From the NCBI GenBank assembly GCA_000724175.1, contig JPGV01000037.1:1-64000 (forward strand): DNA of 64,000 nucleotides. The letters are read 5' to 3'. Source of the DNA: [Candidatus Thermochlorobacteriaceae] bacterium GBChlB. Lineage in GTDB: Bacteria > Bacteroidota > Chlorobiia > Chlorobiales > Thermochlorobacteraceae. The stretch's first letter is position 1, and each line of letters starts with the position of its first letter. The position numbers and the translations under genes are program-made. Positions 159 through 45,703 of this stretch are shown here, piece by piece. Below the pieces are notes generated by a model. It was not told the DNA's origin, did not search any database, and saw only the letters and a list, made by a program, of their open reading frames with translations.

Positions 159-2885
159 ATGACTTTTGCTATTCGGCTTATCCTCGTTGCTGTTTTGATG
201 TTGCAAACGGCTCGCACTGTGTTTGGGCAAGACCGACGGGCGATGCTTGTTGGCACTGTGCGCGCCGCAGAGGACTCTCTCGCGCTTTCAGAGGTCTTTG
301 TGCGTGTCATCGGCTCGAGTGCTTTTGCTATGACCGATGCCAAAGGCTTCTTTCGTTTGGAGAACCTTCCCCGAACACAGGTCACTGTCGTATTTGAGCG
401 CGGCGGCGTGGCTCGAAAAGTTGTTTCGCTCGAGCTGGCGGACGTTGAGACGCGCATTGAAGTGTTCTTGAACTATGCGTCGTTCAAGTCGTCGGAAGTG
501 GTGGTTACTGCCAAAGAAAATGCGCAGGGCGGCGAGCTTGGCACGGCGTCGCGCATTGAGCGCAGTGCTATTGAGCATGTCCAGGCATCGAGCCTTGCGG
601 ATGTGTTGCAACTCTTGCCCGGACAACTCGCGCAAAATCCGACGCTCTCTGGCGTGCGTCAAAGCCTGTTGCGTCAATCATCGCTCTCGACGAGTGCGTC
701 CAATCCGTCCGCTGCCGACCGTGCCAATGCGCTCGGCACGGCAATTGTGCTTGACGGCGTGCCGCTCTCGAACAATGCCAACTTGCAAACGAACCTGACG
801 ATTCTCAATTCGCCCGCAGGCACGCTGCCGCCATTTGCGTCCGCCGAAGGTCGCGGGTTAGACCTGCGGCAATTCTCCGCCGACATTATCGAGTCGATTG
901 AGGTCATTCGCGGCATTCCGTCGGCTCGGCACGGCGACCTGACCGTTGGCGCGATTCTCGTTCAAACACGTGCCTCTGCGTATAAGCCGCAGGCACGGCT
1001 ACGGCTCAACCCGCAAACCGTTGAAAGCACGCTCGGCGGCGGCTGGAACTTTTTTGACAAACGCACCGGCATTAACGCTGAATTGAGCTTTACACGGTCG
1101 CAAGATGACCCGCGCCGCACCGAAGAACTCTTCTCTCGCCTGATGGGAAACCTGACATGGTCGCAACAATGGGACGCTGCCGCTCGGCTGACCACAACAA
1201 CCCGTGCCTCATTCTACACAACGCTCGATGAACGCTTGCAATTCGCCAATGACCGACAGCAAATTGAACGCTCGGCGCAAGACCGCGGCATTCGGGCGAG
1301 CCTCTTTTCCGTCTTTCGCTTTGATGACGACGCCCGCACCAAATTGGAATGGACAGCGAGCTTGAACTATGCCGAACAACTTGGGCGCTTTCAAGAACTT
1401 ATCACGCGCGGCGACGGACGCTTTCCGCTCTCCGACGCAACAATAGACACGACCAAGCCCGGCGTCTTCGGCGACATTGAATACCTGAATCGAACCAGCG
1501 TGCAAGGCTTGCCGCTCAATGTGTATTCACGCTTGGAGGCGATTCACAAAACGTGGGTTGCAGGTTGGTCGCATCAATTTTTTTTCGGCGCGGAAGTTCG
1601 ATTTGACCAAAATCGGGGCGACGGGCGCACATTTGATGTGCTGAGACCACCGCGACAAAACTTTACAGTCGGCGAGCGTCCGCGTGCGTTCAGCGAGATT
1701 CCGGCGCTCGCACAAGTCAGCGCCTACCTCGAAGACCGCGTCGCTACTGACATTTTCGGCAGGGCATTTTTGGCGCAGATCGGCGTGCGGTTCGACAATA
1801 TCCAACCGACAGGACTTTTTTCGGGACGCTTCGGCGCCGCGCTCTCGCCCCGAGTGAACGCCACGCTGGAACTCCTAAACGGCGTGTGGCTGCGCGGCGG
1901 CTATGGCACGACGGTCAAATCGCCAACGCTGTCGCAGCTTTTTCCTGACCGCAAGTATTTTGACCTTGTCGGCTTCAATTACTTTGCGCCCAATCCTGCC
2001 GAACGCTTGGTCATGATTACCACGCGTGTGGTGGAGCCCAAAAATCCTAATGCGCGCTATTTCAGCGCGACGAAAGCCGAACTCGGCATTGATGTGTCGC
2101 TTGGCGGTGTTACTGCAAATGTGGTTGCTTTTCGTGAAGTAACCGACAACGCTTTCGGTATTAGTCGTCTGCCGGTCGTCTTGACGTTCCCGCGCTTTCG
2201 AGTAGTTTCAACGCCTGCTGGTCGCCCACCTGAAATCGCCGTCGCTGCAATCGACACCTTTATCGCCGCCTACGATGTTCCCGTCAACAGCCGCGACATT
2301 CACTCCGAAGGCATTGAACTGACGCTCGATTTGCCCGAATGGTCGCTTGTGCGCACGTCGCTCAACATCACGGGCGCGTATCTGCGCAGCCGCACGACCG
2401 ACGACGCGCTCTTCTTCAACACCGATGTCATTTTCGGAACCACGCCGCCGCAACGCGTCGATGTCTTTCAATCGGGCATCGGCAGAGAATCGCAACTGCT
2501 GACGACATCAGCTCGGTTTATCACGCGCATTCCGGAACTCTCAATGGTTATTTCGCTCTTGGCGCAAACCATTTGGATAGATGCCGACCGTCCATTCAAT
2601 CGCGGGACACAGCCCATTGGCAGTTTAGACCGACAAGGCAATCTCGCATTTCTACCCGAATTGCCTGCGCAGTCGCCGCAGGCAGGCTTGGAACAAACGC
2701 GACCAATGCTCTGGCTCTTCAACGCTCGATTAACAAAGGAGCTGCCATCGGGCATTCGATTTGCTTTTTTTGTCAATAACGTGCTTACCGAGCGTCCGCT
2801 TTTCTTCAATACGGAAACGCGAGCGGCAACGCAGCGCAATCCGACGCTTTTTTTCGGCGCGGAGGTATTCTACAGTTTTCAATAG
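159..2885 (+). CDS. TonB-dependent outer membrane receptor
   Basis: Outer-membrane beta-barrel of about 908 residues that should import a ligand using TonB energy. The start at 159 is preferred over an upstream in-frame ATG at 39 because it begins directly with a Sec signal peptide (MTFAIRLILVAVLML..., cleavage near VFG-Q). Order: signal peptide, carboxypeptidase-like regulatory domain (about 27-110), plug (about 115-270, with VLDGVPLS and IESIEVIRGIPSARHG), then a long barrel ending in an aromatic residue region (VFYSFQ). First gene of a five-gene operon with a DUF4876-like lipoprotein and an outer-membrane barrel. The ligand cannot be read from the sequence. No Shine-Dalgarno site is visible. 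Confidence 0.9.
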   Translation: MTFAIRLILVAVLMLQTARTVFGQDRRAMLVGTVRAAEDSLALSEVFVRVIGSSAFAMTDAKGFFRLENLPRTQVTVVFERGGVARKVVSLELADVETRIEVFLNYASFKSSEVVVTAKENAQGGELGTASRIERSAIEHVQASSLADVLQLLPGQLAQNPTLSGVRQSLLRQSSLSTSASNPSAADRANALGTAIVLDGVPLSNNANLQTNLTILNSPAGTLPPFASAEGRGLDLRQFSADIIESIEVIRGIPSARHGDLTVGAILVQTRASAYKPQARLRLNPQTVESTLGGGWNFFDKRTGINAELSFTRSQDDPRRTEELFSRLMGNLTWSQQWDAAARLTTTTRASFYTTLDERLQFANDRQQIERSAQDRGIRASLFSVFRFDDDARTKLEWTASLNYAEQLGRFQELITRGDGRFPLSDATIDTTKPGVFGDIEYLNRTSVQGLPLNVYSRLEAIHKTWVAGWSHQFFFGAEVRFDQNRGDGRTFDVLRPPRQNFTVGERPRAFSEIPALAQVSAYLEDRVATDIFGRAFLAQIGVRFDNIQPTGLFSGRFGAALSPRVNATLELLNGVWLRGGYGTTVKSPTLSQLFPDRKYFDLVGFNYFAPNPAERLVMITTRVVEPKNPNARYFSATKAELGIDVSLGGVTANVVAFREVTDNAFGISRLPVVLTFPRFRVVSTPAGRPPEIAVAAIDTFIAAYDVPVNSRDIHSEGIELTLDLPEWSLVRTSLNITGAYLRSRTTDDALFFNTDVIFGTTPPQRVDVFQSGIGRESQLLTTSARFITRIPELSMVISLLAQTIWIDADRPFNRGTQPIGSLDRQGNLAFLPELPAQSPQAGLEQTRPMLWLFNARLTKELPSGIRFAFFVNNVLTERPLFFNTETRAATQRNPTLFFGAEVFYSFQ

Positions 2886-2930
2886 TGTGATTTTTACACG
2901 TTCAGTTGTTTTCATCGCGCGTTTTGCACT

Positions 2931-2947
2931 GTTGCAAACGGCTCGCA
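2931..2947 (+). repeat. 17-base direct repeat of the receptor signal-peptide region
   Basis: The 17 bases GTTGCAAACGGCTCGCA at 2931-2947, in the gap before the next gene, also occur at 200-216 inside the receptor's signal-peptide codons. Both copies follow GTTTTG. The rest of 2886-3002 shows no clear promoter or terminator. Confidence 0.6.
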
Positions 2948-3002
2948 TCAACGAAGCAATGCGATTTTTTGTAGCTCACTTTTTTAACCAAACACTCTGT
3001 CT

Positions 3003-4235
3003 ATGAAATCCTTGAAAGTACTCTTGTTGCTCTCGCTTGTCTCTATTGCAGCAATGCAGTTCTCATCGTGCCAAAATTCGCCGACGGAAGCGCAAACATT
3101 TCCGCTTACCGTGCGCGTTCAATTTCCTGCAAACTATGCACAGTCGGCAGCCGCAGGTGCAACAGTTCGCGTGCGCAATGTCGAGAGCGGTACCCGAGAT
3201 TCAGCGACAACCAACACCAGCGGCGAAGCTCGATTCTCGCGCCTACTGCCCGGCACGTATGAAATCACTGCCACGCGCGCACTCTCGGCAACTGAAGCGC
3301 AGTCGCTTACCGGATTTTCCGTCGAGCAAAATCTGAACGCCGTGCGGACGGGTTTTGCGCTGCGCGGCACGGCGGATTCAGTTGTAACTCTTCAACTTGC
3401 TGGCTCGCCCGTCGGCAATTTGGTCATCAAGGAATGCTATTGGACAGGCGCAACCACACGAAACGGTGGCTTTTATTTCTCTGACCAATTCCACGAGATT
3501 TACAACAACTCGACCGACACGATTTTTGTCGACAGCCTTTGCATCGCCGATGTCTATGGCCCGTCGGGACAAATCAATCCGGGCACGCGCCCAACTGAAT
3601 TTCAAGACGACCGAAATAACGTGTATGTGAACAGCATCTGGATGATTCCGGGCACGGGACGCCAGCGCCCGCTTCTGCCGGGTCAAAGCATTATCATTGC
3701 GCAGGACGGCATCAATCATCGCGCCGATACGGCGTTTGTCGGCGTCGAGAACCGCACGGTTGACTTATCGCGCGCCGATTGGGAAACCTTCAATGAGCGC
3801 CCTGACAATCGCGACGCCGACGCACCCAATGTGCCGAACTTGACGCGCCTGTATTTCACGGGCGGATTTGATTGGCTCGTGCCGGTCTTCGGTCCGGGCA
3901 TTGTGATTTTCAGAGCATTCCCGAATATGCTCGCCGACAGCGTGCGCATTCCGGGCGCCGCGCCTACTTTTCCACCACGTATTCGCATTCCGAATACGCG
4001 CATCATCGATGCCTTTGAGGCTCTGCAAAATCCGCAAAGCGGCGGGTTCAAGCGCGTGCCAGCCGCGCTCGATGCGGGCTTTGTTTCCACCAGCGACACA
4101 TACAGCTCGAAGAGCGGACGCAGAAAATTTGCGCGGCGCGTCGGCACGCGAATTATTTTGCAGGACACCAACAACAGCGGCAACGACTTTGACATCATTA
4201 CACCAGCGACGCCAAAACAACTGCCGCAACAATGA
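3003..4235 (+). CDS. DUF4876-like lipoprotein
   Basis: Predicted lipoprotein of 410 residues. The signal sequence ends in a lipobox-like FSSC (Cys about residue 23), so the protein should be lipid-anchored in the envelope. After it comes an Ig/transthyretin-like domain (about 35-130: AGATVRVRNVES, TNTSGEARFSRLLPGTYEITATR), then a region with the FYFSDQFHEIYNNSTDTIFVDSL pattern that I associate with DUF4876 proteins, which are often encoded beside TonB receptors. It is the second gene of the receptor operon and its stop overlaps the next start as ATGA. A role as surface partner of the receptor is an inference. Confidence 0.7.
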   Translation: MKSLKVLLLLSLVSIAAMQFSSCQNSPTEAQTFPLTVRVQFPANYAQSAAAGATVRVRNVESGTRDSATTNTSGEARFSRLLPGTYEITATRALSATEAQSLTGFSVEQNLNAVRTGFALRGTADSVVTLQLAGSPVGNLVIKECYWTGATTRNGGFYFSDQFHEIYNNSTDTIFVDSLCIADVYGPSGQINPGTRPTEFQDDRNNVYVNSIWMIPGTGRQRPLLPGQSIIIAQDGINHRADTAFVGVENRTVDLSRADWETFNERPDNRDADAPNVPNLTRLYFTGGFDWLVPVFGPGIVIFRAFPNMLADSVRIPGAAPTFPPRIRIPNTRIIDAFEALQNPQSGGFKRVPAALDAGFVSTSDTYSSKSGRRKFARRVGTRIILQDTNNSGNDFDIITPATPKQLPQQ

Positions 4236-5782
4236 CACGCCATCGCGTTGCCCATCGACATTGGCCTATACTGCTCGTGCTGACGATAACTGCAGCAGAA
4301 ATTTTCGGACAGCCAGCTAGCGAGACTGCCTTGCCGTTCTCGCTTCAAAGCCAGTCATTGCTCGCCCCAAGTGCTTGGCGGGACGGACAGAACGCCGCCG
4401 CGCTTGGCATTGCCGATATTCCTGTGCAAGGTCATGTTGGGCTGATGTTGCGTCAAACAGATGGCGCACTGCGCCGACCGCAGGAAGCACAACGTGTTTC
4501 AGCGTTGAATTTTTTCAGCGAGGGAGCGCAACGGTTCGGCGAATGGACAACAATAGGCACGCTGCGCTATGAACGCCGCGCCGACATCGGGCTGCGGTGG
4601 TCGAATGTCAACGATGCATATTTCGGCACACCGTTTATTTGGGCAGATTCTGTTGGGGGCGATTGGCAAAAAGATGGCGTTGATATTTCGGCGGCAATAG
4701 GGTCGCCGGAATTTTTCAATGCCGTGAGCGCTGGCGTGCAAGTTCGCTACGATGTTGCCCAAGGCGCACGTCAAAGCGGTGCGCGCCCGCTCTTTCGCGC
4801 TCGCAACTTTCACCTCTCGCCTGCTGTCATGGTTCGGTTGGTTGATTCGCTGCGCGTCGGCGTGTCGGTTGGGTATCTCTCGCGCTTTGAAGAGGGCGAG
4901 TTCGGCGCTGTCGGCGTCGATTTTCCACAACTTATTTATCTACGCGGACTCGGCACGGCAAACACAACGACACTCAACAGCGCAGAACGCCGCATCGTTG
5001 GCGACGGCATCGAGTTCGGCGCACAGGCACAGGGCATCTTGTCTGATTGGACATGGTCGGCGGCGGCAGCCGTTCTGACACGGCAAGACAGCACACAAGA
5101 CTTAGCATTTGTTCCCGACCTGAATCGGACAGCGTTTCGCTTCGCCGGTCGATTCGATTATCGCACGCTCTCGCTCGCACTTGCCGTTCAGCGCGTCGAG
5201 ACCGAGTTCGGCATGGAAGTGCAACTTCACGGCACATTCATCGAGGGGCGCGGCACAGACCCGATTTTTCTTGCAGTCAATACCGTCGACCAAACACAAA
5301 CCGCATCGGCTTCGGTCGCTTGGTGGAGAGGCACATCGAGACTTTACGCGCCGCTCTTGCTCAATGTCGAGTCGAGCCTTGCTACCCTCTGGCGGCGCGA
5401 CATTCTTGCCGAAACCCAATGGCGACGCACGATGCTCTCGGCACAGGCAACACTTGGCACATCACAACGCTTCGGCGAACTGGTCGTTTTCATTGGTCGC
5501 CTGACGGGTGGCGGCGCGACAGCGCTTTCCAAAAGTTACGAGGCATTTCGTCCGCTCGACCTCACGCCGGTCTTGGTGCGTCCCGACTTTCTGGCGATGG
5601 CAGCGACTCGCTTCTGGCTTAGCGCAACGCTCTCGTTTGAAACGCCGATTGCCGCCTTTGGAAATTCCGTTGCACGGCTGGTTGTTCAAGGCGAATTGGT
5701 GCAATCCGCCGCACGGCTCGATGACGGCTCGGCGCTCAACGCTCGCAACCGTTTCAACGCAGGTATGGAACTCGTTTTTTAA
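4232..5782 (+). CDS. Outer-membrane beta-barrel protein, DUF6850-like
   Basis: Protein of 516 residues with a Sec signal peptide (cleavage near IFG-Q, about residue 27) and many alternating beta-strand segments typical of a barrel; it ends in a strand finishing GMELVF, as expected for insertion by Bam. The N-terminal part (SAWRDGQNAAALG, YFGTPFIWADSVGGDWQKDG) resembles the DUF6850 family of outer-membrane barrels, which I recall beside DUF4876 lipoproteins; this is from memory. It starts inside the lipoprotein's stop codon (ATGA), so the two are translationally coupled. Confidence 0.6.
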   Translation: MTRHRVAHRHWPILLVLTITAAEIFGQPASETALPFSLQSQSLLAPSAWRDGQNAAALGIADIPVQGHVGLMLRQTDGALRRPQEAQRVSALNFFSEGAQRFGEWTTIGTLRYERRADIGLRWSNVNDAYFGTPFIWADSVGGDWQKDGVDISAAIGSPEFFNAVSAGVQVRYDVAQGARQSGARPLFRARNFHLSPAVMVRLVDSLRVGVSVGYLSRFEEGEFGAVGVDFPQLIYLRGLGTANTTTLNSAERRIVGDGIEFGAQAQGILSDWTWSAAAAVLTRQDSTQDLAFVPDLNRTAFRFAGRFDYRTLSLALAVQRVETEFGMEVQLHGTFIEGRGTDPIFLAVNTVDQTQTASASVAWWRGTSRLYAPLLLNVESSLATLWRRDILAETQWRRTMLSAQATLGTSQRFGELVVFIGRLTGGGATALSKSYEAFRPLDLTPVLVRPDFLAMAATRFWLSATLSFETPIAAFGNSVARLVVQGELVQSAARLDDGSALNARNRFNAGMELVF

Positions 5783-34169: not shown

Positions 34170-34577
34170 ATGACGGGCAAAATCGACAAGCGCAACGAAA
34201 AGCTGCTGCACAACATTAAGTTAGACAATTTCGAGTTTCTTGAAATTCCCGAACTCTACATTTACTCCGGCGAACTGACGAAAAAAGAAATTCTCTATTT
34301 GCGCCAGCGTTTAGAAGAAATGAAGCGCGTGCGTGAGAATTGCGACCTTGATTCGCAGTTTCGGATGCGTCAGGCGGTCGAGCGCGATATTGTGCATTCT
34401 TTCGGCGAGATGCGATACCGCCGTCTGCAACTTCGAATGCAGATGAACCTCAAAGAATACTGCGAACGATTTATTGAAAGCACGGACATTGACGCTGCGC
34501 CGAAGGACTTTTCCATTCGCAAAGTGCTGCGTCAGGTGCAACAGGTCTTGACAGCTTGGATAAGCAAGTTAGGTTGA
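34170..34577 (+). CDS. Hypothetical protein ahead of a glycosyltransferase gene
   Basis: 135 residues, no signal or membrane segment, mostly helical and charged (YLRQRLEEMKRVRENCDLDSQFRMRQAVERDIVHSFGEMRYRRLQLRMQMNLKEY). One of the few genes here with a strong Shine-Dalgarno (AGGAGG at 34160-34165). No family recognised. It precedes the glycosyltransferase by 4 bases and is likely co-transcribed. Confidence 0.65.
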   Translation: MTGKIDKRNEKLLHNIKLDNFEFLEIPELYIYSGELTKKEILYLRQRLEEMKRVRENCDLDSQFRMRQAVERDIVHSFGEMRYRRLQLRMQMNLKEYCERFIESTDIDAAPKDFSIRKVLRQVQQVLTAWISKLG

Positions 34578-34581
34578 TGCG

Positions 34582-35718
34582 ATGCGACAGAAAATCGCCT
34601 TTGTGTGCAATACAGCATGGGGGCTTTACAACTTTCGTCGTGGCATTATTTGTTCATTGCTTCAACAAGGTGTCGATGTTGTTGTCATTGCGCCTCGCGA
34701 TAAATACAGCGAGAAATTGGGTCGACTTGGCTGTCGTTTCAAAGAGGTTCAACTACAGAGCAGAGGCATGAACCCTATTCAAGACCTCAACTTTTTTCTT
34801 GAACTTTACGCCCTCTACACAACCGAAAAACCCCATCTTATTTTTCACTACACTATCAAACCAAACATTTATGGCAGTTTTGCGGCGCGCTTGCTTGCCA
34901 TTCCTTCAGTTGCAGTGGTTACGGGTGCTGGGCAAGCGTTTGACAGACAAAATGTGCTTAATCGTTTGGTGAGCATGTTATATCGTATTGGACTTGCAAA
35001 AGCAGTTGCCGTCTGGTTTCTCAACGATGATGATAAGCGTTTATTTATTTCCAATGGGATTACGACAGAGGCGCAATGTTCTGTCATCAGAAGCGAAGGC
35101 ATTGATACCACTGTGTTTTCACCTGAGCGATTCTCGCGGTCGTCCTCGATGGCCGTCTCGTTTTTGATGCATGGGCGGCTGTTATGGGAAAAAGGGGTTG
35201 GAGAGTATGTAGATGCTGCGCGTGCCTTGCGAGAGCGAGGCATGGATGCGAAGTTTTATCTGTTGGGCTTTTTGGATAGTCAAAACACCTCCTCTGTCTC
35301 TGAGTTGCAGGTGAGGACATGGGAGCGCGAGGGTGTCATATCATATTTGGGCGTGTCCGACAATGTTGGGGAGCAGATTTCACAAGCAGATGTGGTGGTC
35401 TTGCCTTCCTACTACAGAGAAGGCGTACCGCGCGCGTTGCTGGAAGCGGCAGCGTTAGAGAAGCCCGTCATCACTACCAACTGGGCTGGCTGCAAAGACG
35501 TTGTCGATGACAGCGTGACCGGATTGCTCTGTCAGCCAAAAAATGCGTCCGATTTGGCGGATAAAATGTATCGTTTGGCAACGATGAGCGCCACCGCGCG
35601 GCTCGAAATGGGAAAAGCAGGGCGGCAAAAAGTGCTGCGTGAGTTTAACGAAGACAGCGTGATAGAATCGTATTTGAACTTGATTAAGCGCGTGCGTCAG
35701 CGACGGCTTTTTCAATGA
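34582..35718 (+). CDS. Glycosyltransferase family 4, UDP-sugar type
   Basis: 378 residues, GT-B fold. N-terminal IAFVCNTAWGLYNFRRGIICSLLQQGVDVVVIAP and PHLIFHYTIKPNIYGSFAARLL are typical of family 4 enzymes that extend lipid-linked surface glycans (PglA/WbnH-like). C-terminal donor site: PSYYREGVPRALLEAAALEKPVITTNWAGC with the EX7E-type motif. Acts at the cytoplasmic membrane in polysaccharide assembly. Its last 35 bases overlap the end of the convergent glycosyltransferase gene. Confidence 0.88.
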   Translation: MRQKIAFVCNTAWGLYNFRRGIICSLLQQGVDVVVIAPRDKYSEKLGRLGCRFKEVQLQSRGMNPIQDLNFFLELYALYTTEKPHLIFHYTIKPNIYGSFAARLLAIPSVAVVTGAGQAFDRQNVLNRLVSMLYRIGLAKAVAVWFLNDDDKRLFISNGITTEAQCSVIRSEGIDTTVFSPERFSRSSSMAVSFLMHGRLLWEKGVGEYVDAARALRERGMDAKFYLLGFLDSQNTSSVSELQVRTWEREGVISYLGVSDNVGEQISQADVVVLPSYYREGVPRALLEAAALEKPVITTNWAGCKDVVDDSVTGLLCQPKNASDLADKMYRLATMSATARLEMGKAGRQKVLREFNEDSVIESYLNLIKRVRQRRLFQ

Positions 35719-36811
35719 CCGCGATGGTCTGTTCCGCCGCCGCTGTCCATGAAAACGCTTTTGCGCGCTCACGTCCCTTTTTGATGTAGGTTTCCCGCAT
35801 CGCTGGGTCTTTCCACATCTGTTTCAACTGCAAGGCAAGTTCGTCGGTCGAATTAAACAGCAATCCTGCATCGGCAAGAATTTCCGGATGCGCGGTTCGA
35901 TTCGATGCAATGATGGGAGTGCCTGCTGCCATGGCTTCCACGAGCGGCAAGCCAAATCCTTCGTATAGACTTGGGAAGATCAGCCCGCAAGAGGCTTGGT
36001 AGAGCGCTGGTAAGTCCTCAGTATCGACATAGCCGATAAACTGAACCTGCGGTGCAAGTCCAAGCCGTTCAATACTTATTTTCAGTTCTTGTGCTGCATT
36101 TCCAGTTCCGCCAGCAACTACCAGATTCGGATACACGCCGTCTCTGCCGAGCAAATGCAGTGCGTCAATCGCCTGAGAGAGATTTTTTCGAACCTCAATT
36201 GTTCCCACCGAGAGAAAAAATTCGTCGTGCGCAATGGCATAGCGTTGTCGCAGTCTTGACATGCGGTCTTTTTCAAGCGGCGCGCCAAAGTGGTCGTCTG
36301 CCGCTTCATAGATGACACTAATCCGCTCAGGGGCGATGGCATGAAAACGCAATATGTCTCGTTTGGTAAATTCAGAGACGGCGATGATTTGAGCCGCGCG
36401 GTTGAGCGACGCATTCATGAGCGCGTTGCGATACCATCGGCGCGACAGGGCGATTGTCTCAGGAACGGCTTTGTGAAACATGTCGTGAACGGTAACGACC
36501 GTTGGCAGCGTTGTGCCAATCGGCATAATAAAGAACGGGCAAAAGAGTGCATCATACGCTTCGCGCTGTAGCCGCCATAGAAACGATGTTTGCTCCCATA
36601 GCACACGATGCGGTTGATGTAGGAACGGGGTTTTTATGATGCGCACATGCGGCGCACAAAGCGACTCGGCGCACTGATAGCTCGCATCCATAAATACTGT
36701 GAATTGATGTGATGCCGACAGCTCAGCAATGGCTTTCAGCAATCGGTGGGTATAAAATCCTGTGCCAGTGTTGTGGTTCTTCAGCAGAAGCGCGTCGACG
36801 GCAATGTGCAT
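35684..36811 (-). CDS. Glycosyltransferase family 4, mannosyltransferase-like
   Basis: 375 residues, GT-B fold. GTGFYTHRLLKAI near the N-terminus, TVVTVHDMFHKAVPETIALSRRWYRNALMNASLNRAAQIIAVSEFTKRDI in the middle and PSLYEGFGLPLVEAMAAGTPIIASNRTAHPEIL (EX7E) at the donor site match the WbaZ/mannosyltransferase branch. The ATG at 36811 leaves 14 bases after the methyltransferase; a codon at 36850 would overlap it. Last gene of the PorU-like/polysaccharide operon. Confidence 0.88.
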   Translation of the reverse strand: MHIAVDALLLKNHNTGTGFYTHRLLKAIAELSASHQFTVFMDASYQCAESLCAPHVRIIKTPFLHQPHRVLWEQTSFLWRLQREAYDALFCPFFIMPIGTTLPTVVTVHDMFHKAVPETIALSRRWYRNALMNASLNRAAQIIAVSEFTKRDILRFHAIAPERISVIYEAADDHFGAPLEKDRMSRLRQRYAIAHDEFFLSVGTIEVRKNLSQAIDALHLLGRDGVYPNLVVAGGTGNAAQELKISIERLGLAPQVQFIGYVDTEDLPALYQASCGLIFPSLYEGFGLPLVEAMAAGTPIIASNRTAHPEILADAGLLFNSTDELALQLKQMWKDPAMRETYIKKGRERAKAFSWTAAAEQTIAVIEKAVADARA

Positions 36812-36825
36812 AGCAGGGAAGAGCG

Positions 36826-37554
36826 TTATGGTTGAACTCTGCATATCCAATATACCGTCGAGTTCAGCCAGTGCCGAGAGAGCGGAAACGGAGAGAACGT
36901 GGTTCTCTCGATAGAAAACACTTGACGGATACGTCGTTCAAGGGTGCGAAAATCAAACCCCTTATGTCCGCGATAGTCAACATTGGGTCGGCGATGCGAG
37001 GAATCGAAGCTGGACACATTCCAGAACAGTGCAGCCTGCATCAACTCGCGGAATGTGTAGCGTTCATACTCATACTGAGGGTTTTTAGCGTGAGCCAACC
37101 CGCGCCCAATCTGCTTGAGCAGCAACGACCAGCCGACTTCAATCGGAACGGACAATAAAATCACGGCGTCGTGGCGACAAAGAGAGCGAATGTCTTCCAG
37201 TGTTTGATCAATATGAGCCACGTGTTCTAATGTCTCTGTGCAAACGGCCAAGTCGCATTTTCCGCGTAGCGTATCGGGAACGGCGTGTGGGTGCATAAAT
37301 GCAAATCCGCTCACGCCTTCAAACTCGCGCCGACACCGTTCCAAATCGCTCTCCACAATATCAACACCAACGCCCGCCGTTGCCAGCCCTTGTTGATATG
37401 CCAACTTCAGAAACCATCCGTCGGCGCAGCCGTAATCCAGCACAAAATCATACTGTTTGCCCGAGATGAGGTCAAGCGTTGTCTGAAATCGAGTTGCGTG
37501 TGCGAAGCGCGTCATAAAGCTGCCCCCGCGCATTAGCCGTTGCGTATAGGTCAT
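36826..37554 (-). CDS. Class I SAM-dependent methyltransferase of the polysaccharide operon
   Basis: 242 residues. Motif I FVLDYGCADGWFLKLAYQQG (about 37-56), acidic residue in GVGVDIVESDL, motif IV-like CDLAVCTETLEHVAHIDQTLEDI. The type is common among enzymes acting on sugars or lipid-linked glycans. It starts 6 bases after the PorU-like gene and is followed by a glycosyltransferase, so a glycan target is likely but not shown. Confidence 0.8.
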   Translation of the reverse strand: MTYTQRLMRGGSFMTRFAHATRFQTTLDLISGKQYDFVLDYGCADGWFLKLAYQQGLATAGVGVDIVESDLERCRREFEGVSGFAFMHPHAVPDTLRGKCDLAVCTETLEHVAHIDQTLEDIRSLCRHDAVILLSVPIEVGWSLLLKQIGRGLAHAKNPQYEYERYTFRELMQAALFWNVSSFDSSHRRPNVDYRGHKGFDFRTLERRIRQVFSIERTTFSPFPLSRHWLNSTVYWICRVQP

Positions 37555-37560
37555 GGCGCG

Positions 37561-40500
37561 TTACCGAATGATTGCCAAACGTTCTGTTTTCGTGTAGGTT
37601 TTCGTCGGTGTGCGGACAACGACGCGGTAAATATACACGCCGTTAGCGAGTTGGTCGCCGTCGGCGTCGCGCCCGTCCCATTCAATTTGGTTGCGCCCCA
37701 ACTGTAACGATGGCAGTGCGTTCAACTCCCGAACCATGCGTCCTGCCACTGTGTAGATGAGAATGCGAAAATCGGTTGGTCGGTCAGAGACATCGCCGCT
37801 TCCTGTGAGTGTGAAGGCAAATATGGTCTTGTCGCTGAAAGGATTTGGATAGTTGAAGAGGCTTTCGACGCCGAACTGTGCATTGACAGTGAATTTCAAC
37901 CGCGCGCTGGCACTGTCGGCGATGTTCCCGCTTGCGTCTCGAACTGCAACAAAGAGGTCGTAGTCGCCATCAGCAAGCTGAGGCGTAAATATCACCGTGG
38001 CTGTTCGATTTGTCGATGTGGCTGGCGTGAATGAGAGCCGTTGGCGGTCGCTGTAAAAAATTGGACGATTATTGAGCGTTAGTCGCACCAATGACGTATC
38101 GGCAATTGGCAGAGCGCTGTTGTCTGAAACGGCAATCAAGATGCGCGGCGTGGCGCCTATCAGGTCGCCATTTTGAATGCGTTTCCCATCGACTTCTATC
38201 GTCAGCGTTGGGCGTATGGTATCGGCTCTGATGAAGACCGACGCCGTAGTTGTGTTATTCAATTTTGTGAGTTCCGCCGTGCGATTCTCTGGGTCGAGTT
38301 CTGCGAGTATCGTATGCGCGCCAGCGCGTAACGCCCGCAGTCCTGTCGTGAGTCGACGCTGGGCATTGGGCGCAAGCGTATCAATCCGCAGGGTTTCCGT
38401 CATTACCGCAGCTCCCGTCGCGGTTTGACGCAGCGCGATGCGAAGCGATATGGAGTCTAATCGACTGAACCCGATGTTGCGAACAGTCAGCCCCACTTGA
38501 ACCATCTCACCTTGCTCGACCGTATCGCGTTCTGGCGCGATGAGACGGTGCGACAAGGCGGCATCGCCCGCAGGCGTAAATTCTACCGAAATACGTTGTA
38601 GTGACGGCGCCACGCGCTGCACAGGGTCGCGTTGTAGTTCAGCCCGAAGGCGCAGCTGAGGATATACTCGAGCATCTATGTTTGAGAGGTTCGCATTGGC
38701 GGTTGTTGCCGTCAGCAGCGAATCTTGCCGACCATCGAGCCGAATGCCTTGTGCGGTTACTGCAATTCGACTTTGCCGACTCGGCAGCGTTTGCTGCCAC
38801 GAGAGCGATTGCCACGATGCCGCCATGCCAATCGCCTCGCTTGTTGCGACGCCTACCTGACGCGGAATGGTCAAAAAGGTATCAATCCGCGTTGGACGTT
38901 CCGCCGCATCGCACCCAACGTGAGGCTCACAGCGTTTTCCCCAATCTTCAAAATAGATTTGCCTGTTTTTTGAACCGACAAATACCCAAGACTCTCTGAA
39001 TGTCAGCCGCTCGAAGTGCCGACTGCCGAGCTGACGAAAGCGCTGAATCAGCGGCGAGTTCGCTCCGAAATACGGCACGATATCTACCACAGCGTCTGAC
39101 AAGGCCACCAAGACAATCTGATTATCTTTTAAGCTGTCAAGCAACATTGTTAGGCGTTCTGCCACCAAATTATCTATCGGTGTTGGATTGGGTTCAAACG
39201 GGCGAACCAAGTCAAAGTTGTAGACTGGACTGACACTGACGCTCTGCGACGTATCGAGAATCATTATGTTCAACCCGCGCGTGCCGGGTCGGTTTAGCTC
39301 GAAGTTTCTGATGTTGCCGACAGAAATCTCGTAAAACGGTATGCCTCCCCAAAACGATGCGTTATTGCCTAATGACCGCAGGCGTATCTGTAAGCGGGTG
39401 GTGTCGTTTGTAAGGGCGTTGTCGGCTACCCTCAAGCCGCTCAACCGAAAGTTCTGAAACTGCGCCGCGCCTTGCTGCGACCAAACAACCGCTTGGGGTG
39501 AGACTGAGGCGTCGTATCGCACTGAAAATACGCTCCATGTTTGCTCGATAGCGCCGCCGACTTGCCTCGCGCGCCAAAAATAGTCGATGTTCTCCATCGG
39601 CGTAAATGAGGGCTGCCAAGTTGTTTCTGTTTCGCCTTCATCGACGATGCCGCTCGAGCGTTTCATCGGGCTGTTGAACAGCCGCGAGGTATCCAGCTCA
39701 AACTCGTAGCGGCGAGGCTGTGCTGGACGCTGCGACGAATGCAAAATGGTAAATCCTCTCTGAGACGGATGCACGCACGAGAAATTAAGCGGCTTGACCG
39801 CAGAGACATTTGTCGACGAGATCACGACGCGCACCAAGGCAGTGTTGTTCTCTTTTGAGACTTCGCTGATGCGGTTGCGTTCATCGAGCCTTACTTCCAA
39901 CTCGTGTTGTCCGGGCTTATTGGAAAAATCAAGCTGAACTATCAGCGAGTCTCGTAAGGCAACAGGTGCAATGAGCGTGTCTTTCAACAGTATTGTGTTG
40001 GCGTCTCCCGCCCAGCGGTCGCGGATGGTTACTTGCACGTTTTCTTGGGTAGCTAAGCCAAAGTTTCGGACGACAACGGCTACTGGCTCTGGCGCTGCAT
40101 CGGAAGGCGGTTCATTGATAAATCGGACATCGCTCGATACAATCGACAGGTCTGGCTGTTGAGCCAACATGAGTTCGGCGGCTGGGTCGCCCAAAATGTT
40201 GTATTGATCGATGATGCCGCTCACTTCAGGGTTCCAAAATCGAAATTGGTTTCTGAACTCTGTCTCGGCGTAAAGCCAAATATCGCCAAAGGTGCGGAGG
40301 CGGTTTTGAATGGCGCGCATGGCCGCGCGGTTCAGCGCATCGTCGTATCCGATAAATCCCCAGCCTGCGGTGCCGATGAAGCCCAAGGCACCTGCGTTTT
40401 GTGCGATGACAAACTGTTCGCCAAAGGCTTTTCCAAATGGCTCTGCAAAGCGCCCAGTGTGGCATGTCCAACTCAACACCAACGGATAACGATTGCGGTT

Positions 40501-43071
40501 CTGCAGCGTTCTTGGGTCGCTGAGCGTCAAATCCCATGTTTGAGAACCAGCGTGTCCGACATAATTAACTAAGGTTGCGCCCGATGCAATCCGCGCGCGC
40601 ATTAAATCGGCGAGTTGGGAGCTGACAAATGGACTGGCATCATCGCGGTAGAGCGTGTCGGCTGTGCCGGCGATTGGGCGCGGCAATACAAACGAGGTGA
40701 TAATGGAATTGGAGTTCAAGCGGAATAGTTGCTGCTCAAATGCACCGATGCCGCCGTTGACAAAAATAAAGTGTTTATGCCACGCTTCTGCTTGCAGCGG
40801 TCGCGGCGTTGTCGTGAGTTTATCAAGATACGCATTGGCTTCTGTCGGTGTTTGTGCCGGGATTCTGCCAATGGCAATTCTCGGAATGTTGATATAGGGC
40901 GCGCTGGGGTCGTTATTGAAACTTGTGAACCAAATATCGCTAACAGGGTTTCCATACACAGGCACAAGCGGCGGGCGGGCGGCACTTGCTCTCAAATGGT
41001 GCTTCGCGTCCCAGTTCGCACTGCCGAGCAACACGACATACCGCGAACGCGGTGGCCTCCAATTTTCAAATGCAAACTGTAGAAACTGCTTAATGGCGAG
41101 CGGCGTAAAAAACCCAAAACTAAACTCGGCGTAGATGTCCTCGGTCGTTGCCACAAAGGTGCGGAACTGACCGCCTGCTGGCGACTGACGAAACGCCGCT
41201 AAGCGATTTGCCGCTGCAAGCAATGACGGATGTGTGATGATGATATACTCGGCGCTGTTCGCCGTGTTGCGCAGAAAGGCATTACGGTGCGCACGAATTG
41301 TGGGCTTGTATATCGCCGTTGGAGATGCGCAAAGATAGCGCTTGCCAGCCTCTGCGCTGAACCTGAGCGTTCTGCCTGACACCACGCCGCCAGTTAAGCG
41401 AACCGTATCGGTCATATTGTATAGCACTGCGCTGGGTGCACCGTCCAATTCCGTAACGACGATGTTCGAGGGCGCGCTGCCGTCGGCGCGACAGACTAAC
41501 TGTCTGCTCGTTAGAGACGGATATGAAAAATCGCGCGGATAGTCTACTTCACACCAATCAATGCCGACAATATCGACAGCAGTGGGCGCACTGCGTTGCA
41601 AACGACATAGCACCGCGTTAGCGCCATTTCGCACAGCAGAGGCGCTCAGTTGTGCCGTGATTAGCGTGTCGCCCAGCCCATTGAATCTGACGGAGCCTAC
41701 CGCCGCGCCATTGAACCACAACGACACAGTGTGGGAAGTGTTCGTAAATCCAGTGAGCTTGACGCGCAGTGTCGCTGTGCCGCCTTGCTGCACGCCGTCC
41801 AATGAAAACAAGAGACTCGCCGTATCTTCCGAAGTAGCATTGTTCACTTGCAACTGTTTCCAGAACCAGCCTTCTGCGGGCGTGCGCTCTGTTACGGTGT
41901 AATACCCCACGTTGTAGATGGTATCTTGCTCGATGTGCTGCATATGCTGAAATGAGAGATACTGTCCTGTGCCAACAGGCGCAGCCGATGCCGTGCGCAC
42001 GCGCCGTCCCAGAGCGCCGCCCCATGTCAGCCAATACACACACGTGTCGGAATAGTAATCGCGATACTCCTGCACCGTGCGTATTTGCCGACCAGTGAAG
42101 GGGTCAATGACAGTTTCGGGCGAGCCACGATGAAATGCACCAATAAACTCGATTTCGTCGTCGGCGTCCATGCGTCCGTCAGCGTCTCCGCTTAGCGCAA
42201 TTGGTATCTCGTTGCCTTTGAACAACAGCCTGAGTGTTCTTGGGTCGACCCCGTTTAAACTGACGCCCGCGGCTTCAATGTCCCGTCCAGTGACTCGATG
42301 CACGCCATCGTTGGCAGTGTAAATTTTCACATACGGTTGCGTTGGCTGATACCAATCCGCTAAGGGATGTTGAGACAATTGCAAACTCACTGTCGGAGCA
42401 GGGGTCGATGAGACAACGCGCCATTTTTTTGCGTCTTCATAGTTGACCAAGCGTTGCTGTAAAAAATGCTCTTCTGCATGGGTCAGTGGCGTTGGCGCGT
42501 TCCAAGACGGGCGCTGAGCTAGCTGCACGGTATAGGCTACCTTTACATATCGGTGCCAAACGACTTGTTCCTTCGCTGGCACGGCTTGAACTAATGCGAC
42601 CTGAACTTGAGCCACATACTGATTCCCGACATAGAAATACCTCACAACGCTGGCCACTTCAGCCGGGTATAGGTCCGCAGACTGATAAAATGGATTTTGG
42701 GCGTAGCGCTGATGGAATTGTTCTCGGCTTAAGCTATCGGAAAACGGAGAGACCACTGTCCGGTTCAACGTCTCATTTGCAAGGCTGCGTGTTGACAACA
42801 ACACGCGCGCGTCCGCTGGCAGCCCAATGTAGAAATACTTCACAGGCATTTGCGGATAAACCACATTGCCGTTGATTTTTTCAGGCAAATACACTCCGTC
42901 GGCGAAGGACAAGCGCACCCACTTTTTCTCGAACGCCTCGAGCGGCGTTTGCTGCAAATCATAGCCGTGAACATACGCCACGCTGCTTGGCTGATTGTCC
43001 GGTTGTGCATACATGGGCTTTACGCAACCAAGCAGCATCGTCAGCATTGCAAGGCACGCTCGATACGTCAC
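37561..43071 (-). CDS. PorU-like C25 (gingipain-family) protease with type IX sorting domain
   Basis: 1836 residues from a GTG at 43071 that overlaps the previous stop (GTGA) and begins a signal peptide (MTYRACLAMLTML...). Domains: PorU-type N-terminus; C25 peptidase (about 606-966) with catalytic His840 in YVGHAGSQ and Cys870 in SWTCHTGRF; CARDB-like domain (about 986-1081); an ILEI/PANDER-like domain (about 1241-1371: RGLNIMILDTS, LVALSDAV, QLGSRHFERLTFRESWVFVGSKN); second CARDB-like domain (about 1516-1616); C-terminal sorting domain (about 1734-1836: NYPNPFSDKT, GRMVREL, NGVYIYRV). PorU cleaves sorting signals and attaches cargo to lipopolysaccharide. It is longer than Porphyromonas PorU (about 1150). 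It may instead be a secreted C25 protease. Confidence 0.85.
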   Translation of the reverse strand: MTYRACLAMLTMLLGCVKPMYAQPDNQPSSVAYVHGYDLQQTPLEAFEKKWVRLSFADGVYLPEKINGNVVYPQMPVKYFYIGLPADARVLLSTRSLANETLNRTVVSPFSDSLSREQFHQRYAQNPFYQSADLYPAEVASVVRYFYVGNQYVAQVQVALVQAVPAKEQVVWHRYVKVAYTVQLAQRPSWNAPTPLTHAEEHFLQQRLVNYEDAKKWRVVSSTPAPTVSLQLSQHPLADWYQPTQPYVKIYTANDGVHRVTGRDIEAAGVSLNGVDPRTLRLLFKGNEIPIALSGDADGRMDADDEIEFIGAFHRGSPETVIDPFTGRQIRTVQEYRDYYSDTCVYWLTWGGALGRRVRTASAAPVGTGQYLSFQHMQHIEQDTIYNVGYYTVTERTPAEGWFWKQLQVNNATSEDTASLLFSLDGVQQGGTATLRVKLTGFTNTSHTVSLWFNGAAVGSVRFNGLGDTLITAQLSASAVRNGANAVLCRLQRSAPTAVDIVGIDWCEVDYPRDFSYPSLTSRQLVCRADGSAPSNIVVTELDGAPSAVLYNMTDTVRLTGGVVSGRTLRFSAEAGKRYLCASPTAIYKPTIRAHRNAFLRNTANSAEYIIITHPSLLAAANRLAAFRQSPAGGQFRTFVATTEDIYAEFSFGFFTPLAIKQFLQFAFENWRPPRSRYVVLLGSANWDAKHHLRASAARPPLVPVYGNPVSDIWFTSFNNDPSAPYINIPRIAIGRIPAQTPTEANAYLDKLTTTPRPLQAEAWHKHFIFVNGGIGAFEQQLFRLNSNSIITSFVLPRPIAGTADTLYRDDASPFVSSQLADLMRARIASGATLVNYVGHAGSQTWDLTLSDPRTLQNRNRYPLVLSWTCHTGRFAEPFGKAFGEQFVIAQNAGALGFIGTAGWGFIGYDDALNRAAMRAIQNRLRTFGDIWLYAETEFRNQFRFWNPEVSGIIDQYNILGDPAAELMLAQQPDLSIVSSDVRFINEPPSDAAPEPVAVVVRNFGLATQENVQVTIRDRWAGDANTILLKDTLIAPVALRDSLIVQLDFSNKPGQHELEVRLDERNRISEVSKENNTALVRVVISSTNVSAVKPLNFSCVHPSQRGFTILHSSQRPAQPRRYEFELDTSRLFNSPMKRSSGIVDEGETETTWQPSFTPMENIDYFWRARQVGGAIEQTWSVFSVRYDASVSPQAVVWSQQGAAQFQNFRLSGLRVADNALTNDTTRLQIRLRSLGNNASFWGGIPFYEISVGNIRNFELNRPGTRGLNIMILDTSQSVSVSPVYNFDLVRPFEPNPTPIDNLVAERLTMLLDSLKDNQIVLVALSDAVVDIVPYFGANSPLIQRFRQLGSRHFERLTFRESWVFVGSKNRQIYFEDWGKRCEPHVGCDAAERPTRIDTFLTIPRQVGVATSEAIGMAASWQSLSWQQTLPSRQSRIAVTAQGIRLDGRQDSLLTATTANANLSNIDARVYPQLRLRAELQRDPVQRVAPSLQRISVEFTPAGDAALSHRLIAPERDTVEQGEMVQVGLTVRNIGFSRLDSISLRIALRQTATGAAVMTETLRIDTLAPNAQRRLTTGLRALRAGAHTILAELDPENRTAELTKLNNTTTASVFIRADTIRPTLTIEVDGKRIQNGDLIGATPRILIAVSDNSALPIADTSLVRLTLNNRPIFYSDRQRLSFTPATSTNRTATVIFTPQLADGDYDLFVAVRDASGNIADSASARLKFTVNAQFGVESLFNYPNPFSDKTIFAFTLTGSGDVSDRPTDFRILIYTVAGRMVRELNALPSLQLGRNQIEWDGRDADGDQLANGVYIYRVVVRTPTKTYTKTERLAIIR

Positions 43072-44513
43072 TTGGCACTGTATGACCTTAGAGAACCAAC
43101 CCGATTGATAAACCATATATTGTAAAGAATAGAGAAAATCGCGCCTGTTGTTACCGGTTCGCAAATGCCTGCCTGAAACAGCCCCAGAGGGAGTAAACAG
43201 GTATTTGCATAGAACGCCAACTTTGCTGGCTTGCTCAGGATGTCGGAAAAGTATGATTGGAGAGCGCGAACCAGAACGCCCACAAATAAGCAATACGCAA
43301 TGACTCCCGCAACCCCAAAATTGAGGTATGCTTCGCCGAACAGCGAAATTTCAAAGTAAATTGAATTCGCGGCATATTGCGGATGAAATGTTTGCGTGTA
43401 GACAGTGCTACTTAGCCACGGCTTTTCTGGCAAGATGGCACGCGGTATCGGCGACAGCAAGAGCGCCAAAAACGGCTGACCATAACTGTAGTCGATCCCC
43501 GATTCGCCTGTCGACAGCACTTCTATAATTTCAAGGTATCGTCGGAAGCTGTCGAACCGCGCAAACAAATTTGCCAGAAAAAACAGCACCCCGTCCGTGT
43601 TGAGCAGTGTGGCTGCATCCCATCCTGCCTCAACCGTAGAGGCTTGGAGTGCCTCGCGGAACAGTCCTAAAAATACCACCAATGCACTGCCGCCTGCTGC
43701 CGCTGCTGCCACATACCCGATTGAAATTTTGCCCTGTTTAAGATACCACGCGATGCCTGCCACAATCATGAGCGCCAGAAACGGACCGCGCGCGCCGAAG
43801 GTCAGCTGAACAAGGCAATACACCAGCAGATATGCTAAGAAGAACTGTTTATCGCCTTGTTCTAATTCATTCCCCGAATCAAACCATGCACATACCCATA
43901 AGCCGATTGGCACAGAGAGCGTCAGATTGACAAACAGGGTCAAATACGACAACCCTTGTGCCGTCGATTTTGCCCGAAACTCAACCATGTTCAGAAAAGC
44001 ATCGACTGGACTTGCATATCCCAGCACGAGCAACAGTAAGCCGTAACTGCCTAACCCGATAATCAAATTCGTCTGCGTTTGCCGCCGCAAGACGGCGACG
44101 CTCAATGGCTCATCGAGCCTCATTGCTGGCACAGAGGACATTGACTGACCAATCACCCAGCCAAGGTTCAGTTGAAATCCCGTGAAGAAGGCTGTAACAC
44201 CGGCAAGAAAAAACCAGACCCCTCGCGAAAACGTGTCGTCGGAAATCGGGCGTATATCATCGAGTTTAATCCCTAAGAACAACGGGAGCGCGGACAGCGG
44301 AAGATAGACCGTAACCGCAAGCAACGCGATTCCGAGCGGGGAGACCATCAAAGAGCGTTGAGCGGACAACGCATCGCCCAGTTGAAACAGGTGCAAGTAG
44401 CTTGCCACAATCATATAGAGCAACGACATGAGCATCAGGTAAGCATTGCCCACTATGGCAGCAACGACGATGCCCGTCAGAAATACCAGCAGATAGATGT
44501 GTTTAAGCCTCAT
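43068..44513 (-). CDS. O-antigen-polymerase-like membrane protein
   Basis: 481 residues with about twelve membrane helices and a large loop before the last ones (IPRAILPEKPWLSSTVYTQTFHPQYAANSIYFEISLFGEAYLNFG), and FGARGPFLALMI; this is the arrangement of Wzy/EpsG/oligosaccharide polymerases. Its start overlaps the upstream glycosyltransferase stop (ATGA) and its stop overlaps the PorU-like start (GTGA), so all three are tightly coupled. Sequence conservation in this class is low, so the polymerase call is moderate. Confidence 0.7.
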   Translation of the reverse strand: MRLKHIYLLVFLTGIVVAAIVGNAYLMLMSLLYMIVASYLHLFQLGDALSAQRSLMVSPLGIALLAVTVYLPLSALPLFLGIKLDDIRPISDDTFSRGVWFFLAGVTAFFTGFQLNLGWVIGQSMSSVPAMRLDEPLSVAVLRRQTQTNLIIGLGSYGLLLLVLGYASPVDAFLNMVEFRAKSTAQGLSYLTLFVNLTLSVPIGLWVCAWFDSGNELEQGDKQFFLAYLLVYCLVQLTFGARGPFLALMIVAGIAWYLKQGKISIGYVAAAAAGGSALVVFLGLFREALQASTVEAGWDAATLLNTDGVLFFLANLFARFDSFRRYLEIIEVLSTGESGIDYSYGQPFLALLLSPIPRAILPEKPWLSSTVYTQTFHPQYAANSIYFEISLFGEAYLNFGVAGVIAYCLFVGVLVRALQSYFSDILSKPAKLAFYANTCLLPLGLFQAGICEPVTTGAIFSILYNIWFINRVGSLRSYSAK

Positions 44514-45703
44514 GCTTTTTGCGGGTTTAACGACCTCTGCTGCAGAGATAACAACAGCTTTGCTTGTGCATACACTTGCTCCACTGAGACGCCATTAATA
44601 CACTCCATCGTTTTGCACCCGTTGGTTCTGTAACATGGCGCGCACCATACCGGATGTGTCAATGCCACGCCATTGCCATGCATCGGTTTCCACCAGTGCG
44701 GATTTTGAATGCCGGTATAGAGCGTTACGCTTGGCGTGCCAACAGCGTCGGCAATGTGTGTGCTGACGGAATCGACGCCGATAAGCAGCTCTGCATGTTC
44801 TATCACGCCGATGAACTCGCGCCAGCTTAGTTGGTTGCATAGATTAACGCTTCCGGGAAGGTCTTTTGTTACCGATTGAATTTTCTTTTCATCGGCGCTG
44901 CCCGAGCCAGTGAAGACAACCGTATAGCCATCGCCAATGAGCCTTGCAGCAAGTTGCTTCCAGCTGTCGAGCAACCAGTTTTTTTTATGATGTCCTGCGC
45001 CGATGTGTAGCACAATGCAGTGCTCGATTGCCCTGCCGCGCGGCGGGCTCTCGCCGTGCAGAATGACCTGTCGTTTTTCAACATGCTCGGCTGTAAAATT
45101 TGGCAAGCACTTCAGCAGCTGGAAGTGATACTCCAAGACGTGCGCGTCGCGCATTGCCCAATCCATCGGGTGCGTGTATAAGTTGCCGAAACCGCCGCTC
45201 GTATAGCCAATTCTAACCGGGATGCGGGCTTGATGCAGCCATAGCGCCACATTCGGGAAAAACGGATACACATCGATTGCCGCGTCATACCCGATGGCGC
45301 GCATCTCCGCCAGTGCTGCACAAGCCGTAGATTGATAACGACGATATTTTTCAAGCAACGACATCTTTGCGCGGTTTTGCTTCCAATGATCAATGATGTG
45401 AACAAAGGATACAAGCGGATTCGCTTTGACAATGTGAGCCGCCCAACTCCCGACCACGCATCCAATCTCCATGTCAGGATTATAGGCTTTTAACGATGTA
45501 AACAGACCTGTCATTATCAGCACATCGCCCAAGTGCGCGGAGTTCGCCAGCAATAGGCGCTTTGGTGTTGGGATTTCTGTCGCGGCTCGACGAGGGAATC
45601 GCATGCTCACATAGGCATCTGCGGCATACAAAGCACCACGCAACAGCGGATTTGCTGCCAGATATTTTCCGTTGAGCGGCGACGGATTCGGTGTTGCCGA
45701 CAT
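44510..45703 (-). CDS. Glycosyltransferase family 9 (heptosyltransferase-like)
   Basis: 397 residues. N-terminal domain PKRLLLANSAHLGDVLIMTGLFTSLKAYNPDMEIGCVVG; C-terminal donor domain with VLHIGAGHHKKNW, VVFTGSGSADEKK, LLIGVDSVSTHIADAVGTPSVTLYTG, and a Cys-rich tail CAPCYRTNGCKTMECINGVSVEQV that is typical of this family in Bacteroidota. Acts in the LPS core or O-chain. First gene of the minus-strand operon leading to the PorU-like protease. Confidence 0.9.
   Translation of the reverse strand: MSATPNPSPLNGKYLAANPLLRGALYAADAYVSMRFPRRAATEIPTPKRLLLANSAHLGDVLIMTGLFTSLKAYNPDMEIGCVVGSWAAHIVKANPLVSFVHIIDHWKQNRAKMSLLEKYRRYQSTACAALAEMRAIGYDAAIDVYPFFPNVALWLHQARIPVRIGYTSGGFGNLYTHPMDWAMRDAHVLEYHFQLLKCLPNFTAEHVEKRQVILHGESPPRGRAIEHCIVLHIGAGHHKKNWLLDSWKQLAARLIGDGYTVVFTGSGSADEKKIQSVTKDLPGSVNLCNQLSWREFIGVIEHAELLIGVDSVSTHIADAVGTPSVTLYTGIQNPHWWKPMHGNGVALTHPVWCAPCYRTNGCKTMECINGVSVEQVYAQAKLLLSLQQRSLNPQKA

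Follow-up and report, generated by a model that had tools for sequence, protein, structure and literature searches.

The window, a stretch of 64,000 nucleotides from Candidatus Thermochlorobacteriaceae bacterium GBChlB (contig JPGV01000037.1), carries on its minus strand a tight operon of five genes that encode a GT9 glycosyltransferase, a Wzy-like polymerase, a C25 protein, a methyltransferase and a GT4 glycosyltransferase. The features of the locus are as follows.

44510-45703, minus strand: GT9 glycosyltransferase, heptosyltransferase-like, first gene of the operon (PF01075, E 4e-27)
43068-44513, minus strand: Wzy-like polysaccharide polymerase (PF14296 O-ag_pol_Wzy, E 2.5e-5, just below the cut-off; 8 predicted transmembrane segments)
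37561-43071, minus strand: PorU2 sortase-like C25 protein, 1,836 aa, GTG start (NF052324 and tree)
43006-43071, minus strand: predicted signal peptide of PorU2, residues 1-22, VTYRACLAMLTMLLGCVKPMYA (read by eye)
40171-41247, minus strand: C25 catalytic domain, residues 609-967 (PF01364)
40552-40554 and 40462-40464, minus strand: codons of His840 and Cys870, the C25 dyad
38965-39279, minus strand: FAM3/ILEI/POMGnT1-stem domain, residues 1265-1369, carbohydrate-binding type (PF15711, E 1.4e-10)
37561-37857, minus strand: C-terminal domain of type IX secretion system (T9SS) signal type, YNYPNPF ... KLAIIR (PF13860)
36826-37554, minus strand: SAM methyltransferase (PF13489, E 1.1e-15)
35684-36811, minus strand: GT4 glycosyltransferase, ATG at 36811 (PF00534, E 1.3e-34)
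34582-35718, plus strand: convergent GT4 glycosyltransferase at the end of the operon (PF00534, E 1e-25)

The GT9 and polymerase genes share an ATGA overlap at 44510-44513, and the polymerase and PorU2 genes a GTGA overlap, the PorU2 GTG lying at 43071; the methyltransferase starts 6 bases past the end of PorU2, and the GT4 gene, read from its ATG, 14 bases past the methyltransferase. The initial annotation had described this operon with its two overlaps and two short gaps, and all of it was confirmed in the sequence. The convergent GT4 is kept beside PorU2 in another genus of the family (locus L049, 47% identity). Bordering the operon together with the convergent GT4 is a gene for a 135-aa protein (34170-34577) that has no Pfam or NCBIfam match; its identity to the L049 counterpart, which is also PorU2-adjacent, is 72%, far above that of the surrounding genes.

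Three C25 proteins are encoded in this genome of 3.05 Mb (51 contigs, completeness rated at 100%); one of them, the canonical PorU, lies at C20:226263-230369 and scores 946.9 bits with the PorU model NF033707. The window protein reaches 326.7 bits with that model, under its cut-off of 420. With the PorU2 model NF052324 it scores 451.8 bits as a whole protein, two over the cut-off of 450, and 437.8 bits, below the cut-off, as a single stretch in the genome search. In a tree of 95 C25 cores, built with a quick method without bootstraps, the PorU2 proteins split from PorU and a secA-linked type with an SH-aLRT of 99, and the window protein falls in a clade of its family (support 100) inside PorU2; the tree is midpoint-rooted and does not give the direction of evolution. 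A PDB profile search places PorU (6za2, 8.9e-64) far ahead of a gingipain (4ief, 3.1e-19). On model scores and tree, the window protein is of the PorU2 type and is not the genome's own PorU. The initial annotation had taken it for that PorU, a reading to which the C25 domain with intact dyad, the C-terminal signal domain (CTD) and the linked glycan genes would lend themselves; the 947-bit PorU elsewhere and the score under the PorU cut-off (326.7 against 420) refute the identity and leave it next to no probability. The annotation had also named what would overturn its proposal: a separate canonical porU, which is present, and a grouping with secreted C25 proteases, which was not found, the PorU2 clade standing beside PorU and the secA-linked type and 6za2 far outscoring the gingipain.

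Linkage to glycan genes was surveyed in a scan of 395 genomes, in which two kinds of PorU2 were split by score before their neighborhoods were read: set 1, at 555-1057 bits, and the window-like set 2, at 355-443 bits. Glycosyltransferases were called with iterated profiles built from genes of the window and its relatives, and a locus was counted as linked when a glycosyltransferase or polymerase lay within three genes. Linkage was found in 37/40 set-2 loci and, for the window's family, in 4/7, which gives 41/47 in all, versus 2/19 canonical PorU loci from the same genome set (Fisher p = 5e-9, with loci treated as independent); it was seen in 1/20 set-1 loci. When each taxonomic family is counted once, so that close relatives do not inflate the figure, linkage holds in 14/16. 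As an independent check with Pfam, the gene directly upstream of the 40 set-2 PorU2 genes encodes a WecG/TagA/CpsF (GT26) protein in 18 cases, a GT4 in 10, a GT2 in 2 and Polysacc_synt_2 in 3, and the flanks of canonical PorU hold PorV in 17/38 and a glycosyltransferase in 2/38. We considered whether the linkage merely reflects genomes rich in glycosyltransferases and rejected this, because canonical PorU in the same genome set is linked in only those 2/19 loci.

The GT26 and PorU2 genes overlap by 4 bases in L120, L123, L127, L129 and L135. Among the named organisms with PorU2 relatives are Ignavibacteria, Melioribacteraceae and Rhodothermales such as Roseithermus. Within the window's family, further genera (L048, L049, L050) show this order of Wzy/ligase, PorU2 and GT4; the kind of polymerase differs, being PF14296-like here and Wzy_C in L048 and L050, and its position before PorU2 is kept. 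The recurrence in related genomes that the initial annotation suggested looking for is therefore present, both in other genera of the family and across the phylum, and marks the arrangement as more than a chance one. No linkage was seen in genus g3 of the family (L045 and L047; the contig of L046 is too short to tell). PorU2 tandem pairs occur in L098 and L120 (genomes G172 and G257), and at L049:7549-13531 PorU2 and the adjoining polymerase each fall into two frames, a split that assembly errors or frameshifts probably explain.

The window protein begins with a predicted signal peptide in which a lipobox-like LLGC precedes CVKPMYA, and the N-terminus may be lipidated or cut before QPDN. His840 and Cys870 align with the dyad of PorU 6za2 and are invariant in 25/25 PorU2 proteins. 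There is a weak match to the C25 propeptide, and the C-terminus, which aligns to that of 6za2, scores 20.9 bits with TIGR04183, just under the cut-off of 23. A PorU2 profile matches 6za2 in two stretches, the pre-core with the C25 core and then the C-terminal Ig/CTD; between them lie some 600 residues without counterpart in the 6za2 match, and this insert holds CARDB and FAM3 domains.

The profile of the FAM3 domain also matches the POMGnT1 stem (E 6.7e-18), and Foldseek with a model of the domain (pLDDT 76) returned only FAM3, POMGnT1 and TMEM2 among the first 21 PDB matches; the whole C-terminal half as query gave only multi-Ig matches, with a TM score of at most 0.17. Pfam alone detects the domain in 20/25 PorU2 proteins, and not in the four canonical PorU and two set-1 proteins searched. 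With a locally built profile it was found in 48/48 window-type PorU2 (f1 and set 2) and 15/20 set-1 PorU2, and in 0/20 canonical PorU and 0/8 secA-linked proteins; as Pfam did not detect it in the two set-1 proteins, its presence in set 1 is based on the local profile. Both the POMGnT1 stem and FAM3C bind sugars, and in POMGnT1 the contacts are made by R129, D179 and R207 (PMC9802357). R1265, D1326 and R1359 of the window protein correspond to these residues, the columns having been matched by hand from the profile alignment and the spacing of known residue numbers; the hand-matched Arg-Asp-Arg triad is shared by the window protein and five more of the 25 aligned proteins and varies in the others. 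Because of this variation across the PorU2 clade, the triad was not accepted as proof that sugar is bound. We infer that the FAM3 domain binds the local glycan.

The T9SS context for PorU2 is present in this genome, with SprA/Sov (1388 bits, full, contig 16), PorV (286 bits) and 45 type A CTD matches; porV, sov and CTD-bearing cargo, which the initial annotation proposed to seek, were all found, and PorZ (408 bits) as well. Since the genome holds canonical PorU and PorZ, PorU2 is not needed here for ordinary cargo. A second SprA-like frame (contig 5 of G000, 511-5235, 1,747 aa, 1159 bits) may be a truncation, a duplication or an assembly effect. Canonical PorU and PorU2 coexist in 25/30 PorU2 genomes tested, and PorZ was found in 8/8 PorU-bearing genomes tested. 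A different picture is given by one family, f34, with six genomes that are 98-99% complete and have 59-68% GC in the loci read: PorU2 is the only C25 protein in each of the six, canonical PorU (NF033707) was not found in the five tested and no PorZ exceeded the cut-off in the six, yet SprA, PorV and 16-58 CTD matches are retained. In P. gingivalis, PorZ delivers A-LPS to PorU (PMC8545088), so a family that lacks both PorU and PorZ but retains PorU2 fits the expectation for a PorU2 that does both jobs. This is one family, and the absence could also fit a loss of anchoring.

We therefore favor the reading that PorU2 works as a T9SS sortase, attaches cargo to a locally made glycan and carries its own sugar-binding module, and give it a probability of roughly 0.58 on what the sequences offer. 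PorU removes the CTD and attaches the C-terminus so formed to A-LPS (PMC7468200, PMC8545088); by likeness we infer that PorU2 cleaves CTDs and that its acceptor is the local glycan. PorU2 would most likely be exported by Sec and then by the T9SS, and act at the cell surface. In some or all cargo, Cys870, with His840 as its partner, would attack the peptide bond that precedes the C-terminal signal domain, and the thioester would be passed to the glycan, whose polymerization and decoration are presumably encoded by the neighbors of PorU2. The inserted FAM3/POMGnT1-stem domain would hold that glycan, a job done for PorU by the separate PorZ. In the genome of the window, PorU and PorU2 may serve two acceptors or two classes of cargo. 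The proposal of the initial annotation that a sortase and its glycan acceptor are made together is strengthened by the phylum-wide linkage and the domain of carbohydrate-binding type, but the sortase is not the PorU. A stronger form, in which one protein fuses the PorU transpeptidase with a glycan-binding module, is dedicated to the glycan of its own locus and has replaced the PorU/PorZ pair in at least one family, is put forward tentatively, at somewhat less than even odds; if such replacement is true, T9SS glycan anchoring takes many forms beyond the A-LPS of P. gingivalis.

A narrower role is conceivable, in which PorU2 processes or couples one or a few proteins associated with capsule or exopolysaccharide, perhaps encoded next door, and canonical PorU handles all ordinary cargo. 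This would suit the genomes in which the two coexist (25/30) and the secreted-looking proteins encoded after PorU2 at a number of loci (clusters 6 and 15); however, in f34, where PorU2 is the sole C25 protein, 16-58 CTD matches are kept, and we regard the narrower role as unlikely. Less probable again is that PorU2 is no sortase and is itself T9SS cargo, a C25 protease in secreted or latent form that resides in polysaccharide loci by chance. The CTD-like end and the weak propeptide match could be read in this way, but PorU itself has a CTD-like domain, PorU is matched far better than gingipains (8.9e-64 versus 3e-19), and the order of the genes and their overlaps with glycan genes are conserved in many families.

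The linkage could also be passive, glycan loci being often exchanged and rebuilt, with no function joint with PorU2. The neighboring genes do vary widely in kind, and the PorU2 genes of set 1 and g3 have left glycan loci. The arrangement is nevertheless kept in 14/16 families, often as a 4-base overlap with GT26, and canonical PorU in the same genome set is not so placed, which makes passive linkage very improbable. The sortase that couples cargo to the local glycan remains our preferred account of PorU2.

PorU2 is already a named NCBI family (NF052324, "putative type IX secretion system sortase PorU2"); the window protein matches the full 879-position model, falls in the same clade and shares the FAM3 domain that is detectable in most members. 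It differs from the core members of the family in score (350-456 bits for the window type versus 555-1057) and in setting, since the core members, our set 1 (L088-L107), mostly follow a PorV-like gene (12 loci) without glycosyltransferase neighbors, a pairing unlike the glycan loci of the window type. With P. gingivalis PorU (6za2, NF033707), PorU2 shares the C25 core with its His/Cys dyad, the preceding beta domains and the C-terminal Ig/CTD; unlike PorU, it has about 600 extra residues (CARDB, FAM3), a separate gene and clade, and glycan rather than PorV genes as neighbors. PorZ (NF052228) resembles the FAM3 domain of PorU2 in the proposed role of holding the acceptor glycan, but is a separate protein of beta-propellers, an unrelated fold, present in this genome and missing in f34.

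The nearest idea in print is the pairing of exosortase with exopolysaccharide genes (PMC1569441), which has been mentioned beside the Wbp/Vim pathway (PMC7468200). Exosortase/EpsH with PEP-CTERM is, like the proposed PorU2, a transpeptidase for C-terminal sorting whose gene lies with those for exopolysaccharide; it is an unrelated inner-membrane protein, whereas PorU2 is a C25 cysteine peptidase homolog that carries T9SS signals and presumably resides on the outer surface. The PorU2/glycan pairing would be the T9SS counterpart of the exosortase arrangement, built from an unrelated enzyme. A literature search that reached a minority of subscription papers found no paper under the name PorU2 and, among the titles and abstracts listed, no description of its glycan linkage, its FAM3 domain or the absence of PorU and PorZ. 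What is known of the partner to which T9SS cargo is attached comes, to our knowledge, largely from the oral Bacteroidota. A sortase gene beside the enzymes of a specific glycan would point to the acceptor, so that the sugar anchor can be sought, and f34, which seemingly runs on PorU2 alone, offers a clean test of PorU2 as a sortase.

The third C25 protein of this genome (1,832 aa, L013:6708-12206, contig 9 of G000) has relatives in L051-L057. Its gene lies between secA and a gene for a PorV/Q-like outer-membrane protein, with further genes to purL, a synteny common to three families of the order. These secA-linked proteins form their own clade beside PorU and may represent another sortase served by a shuttle of its own.
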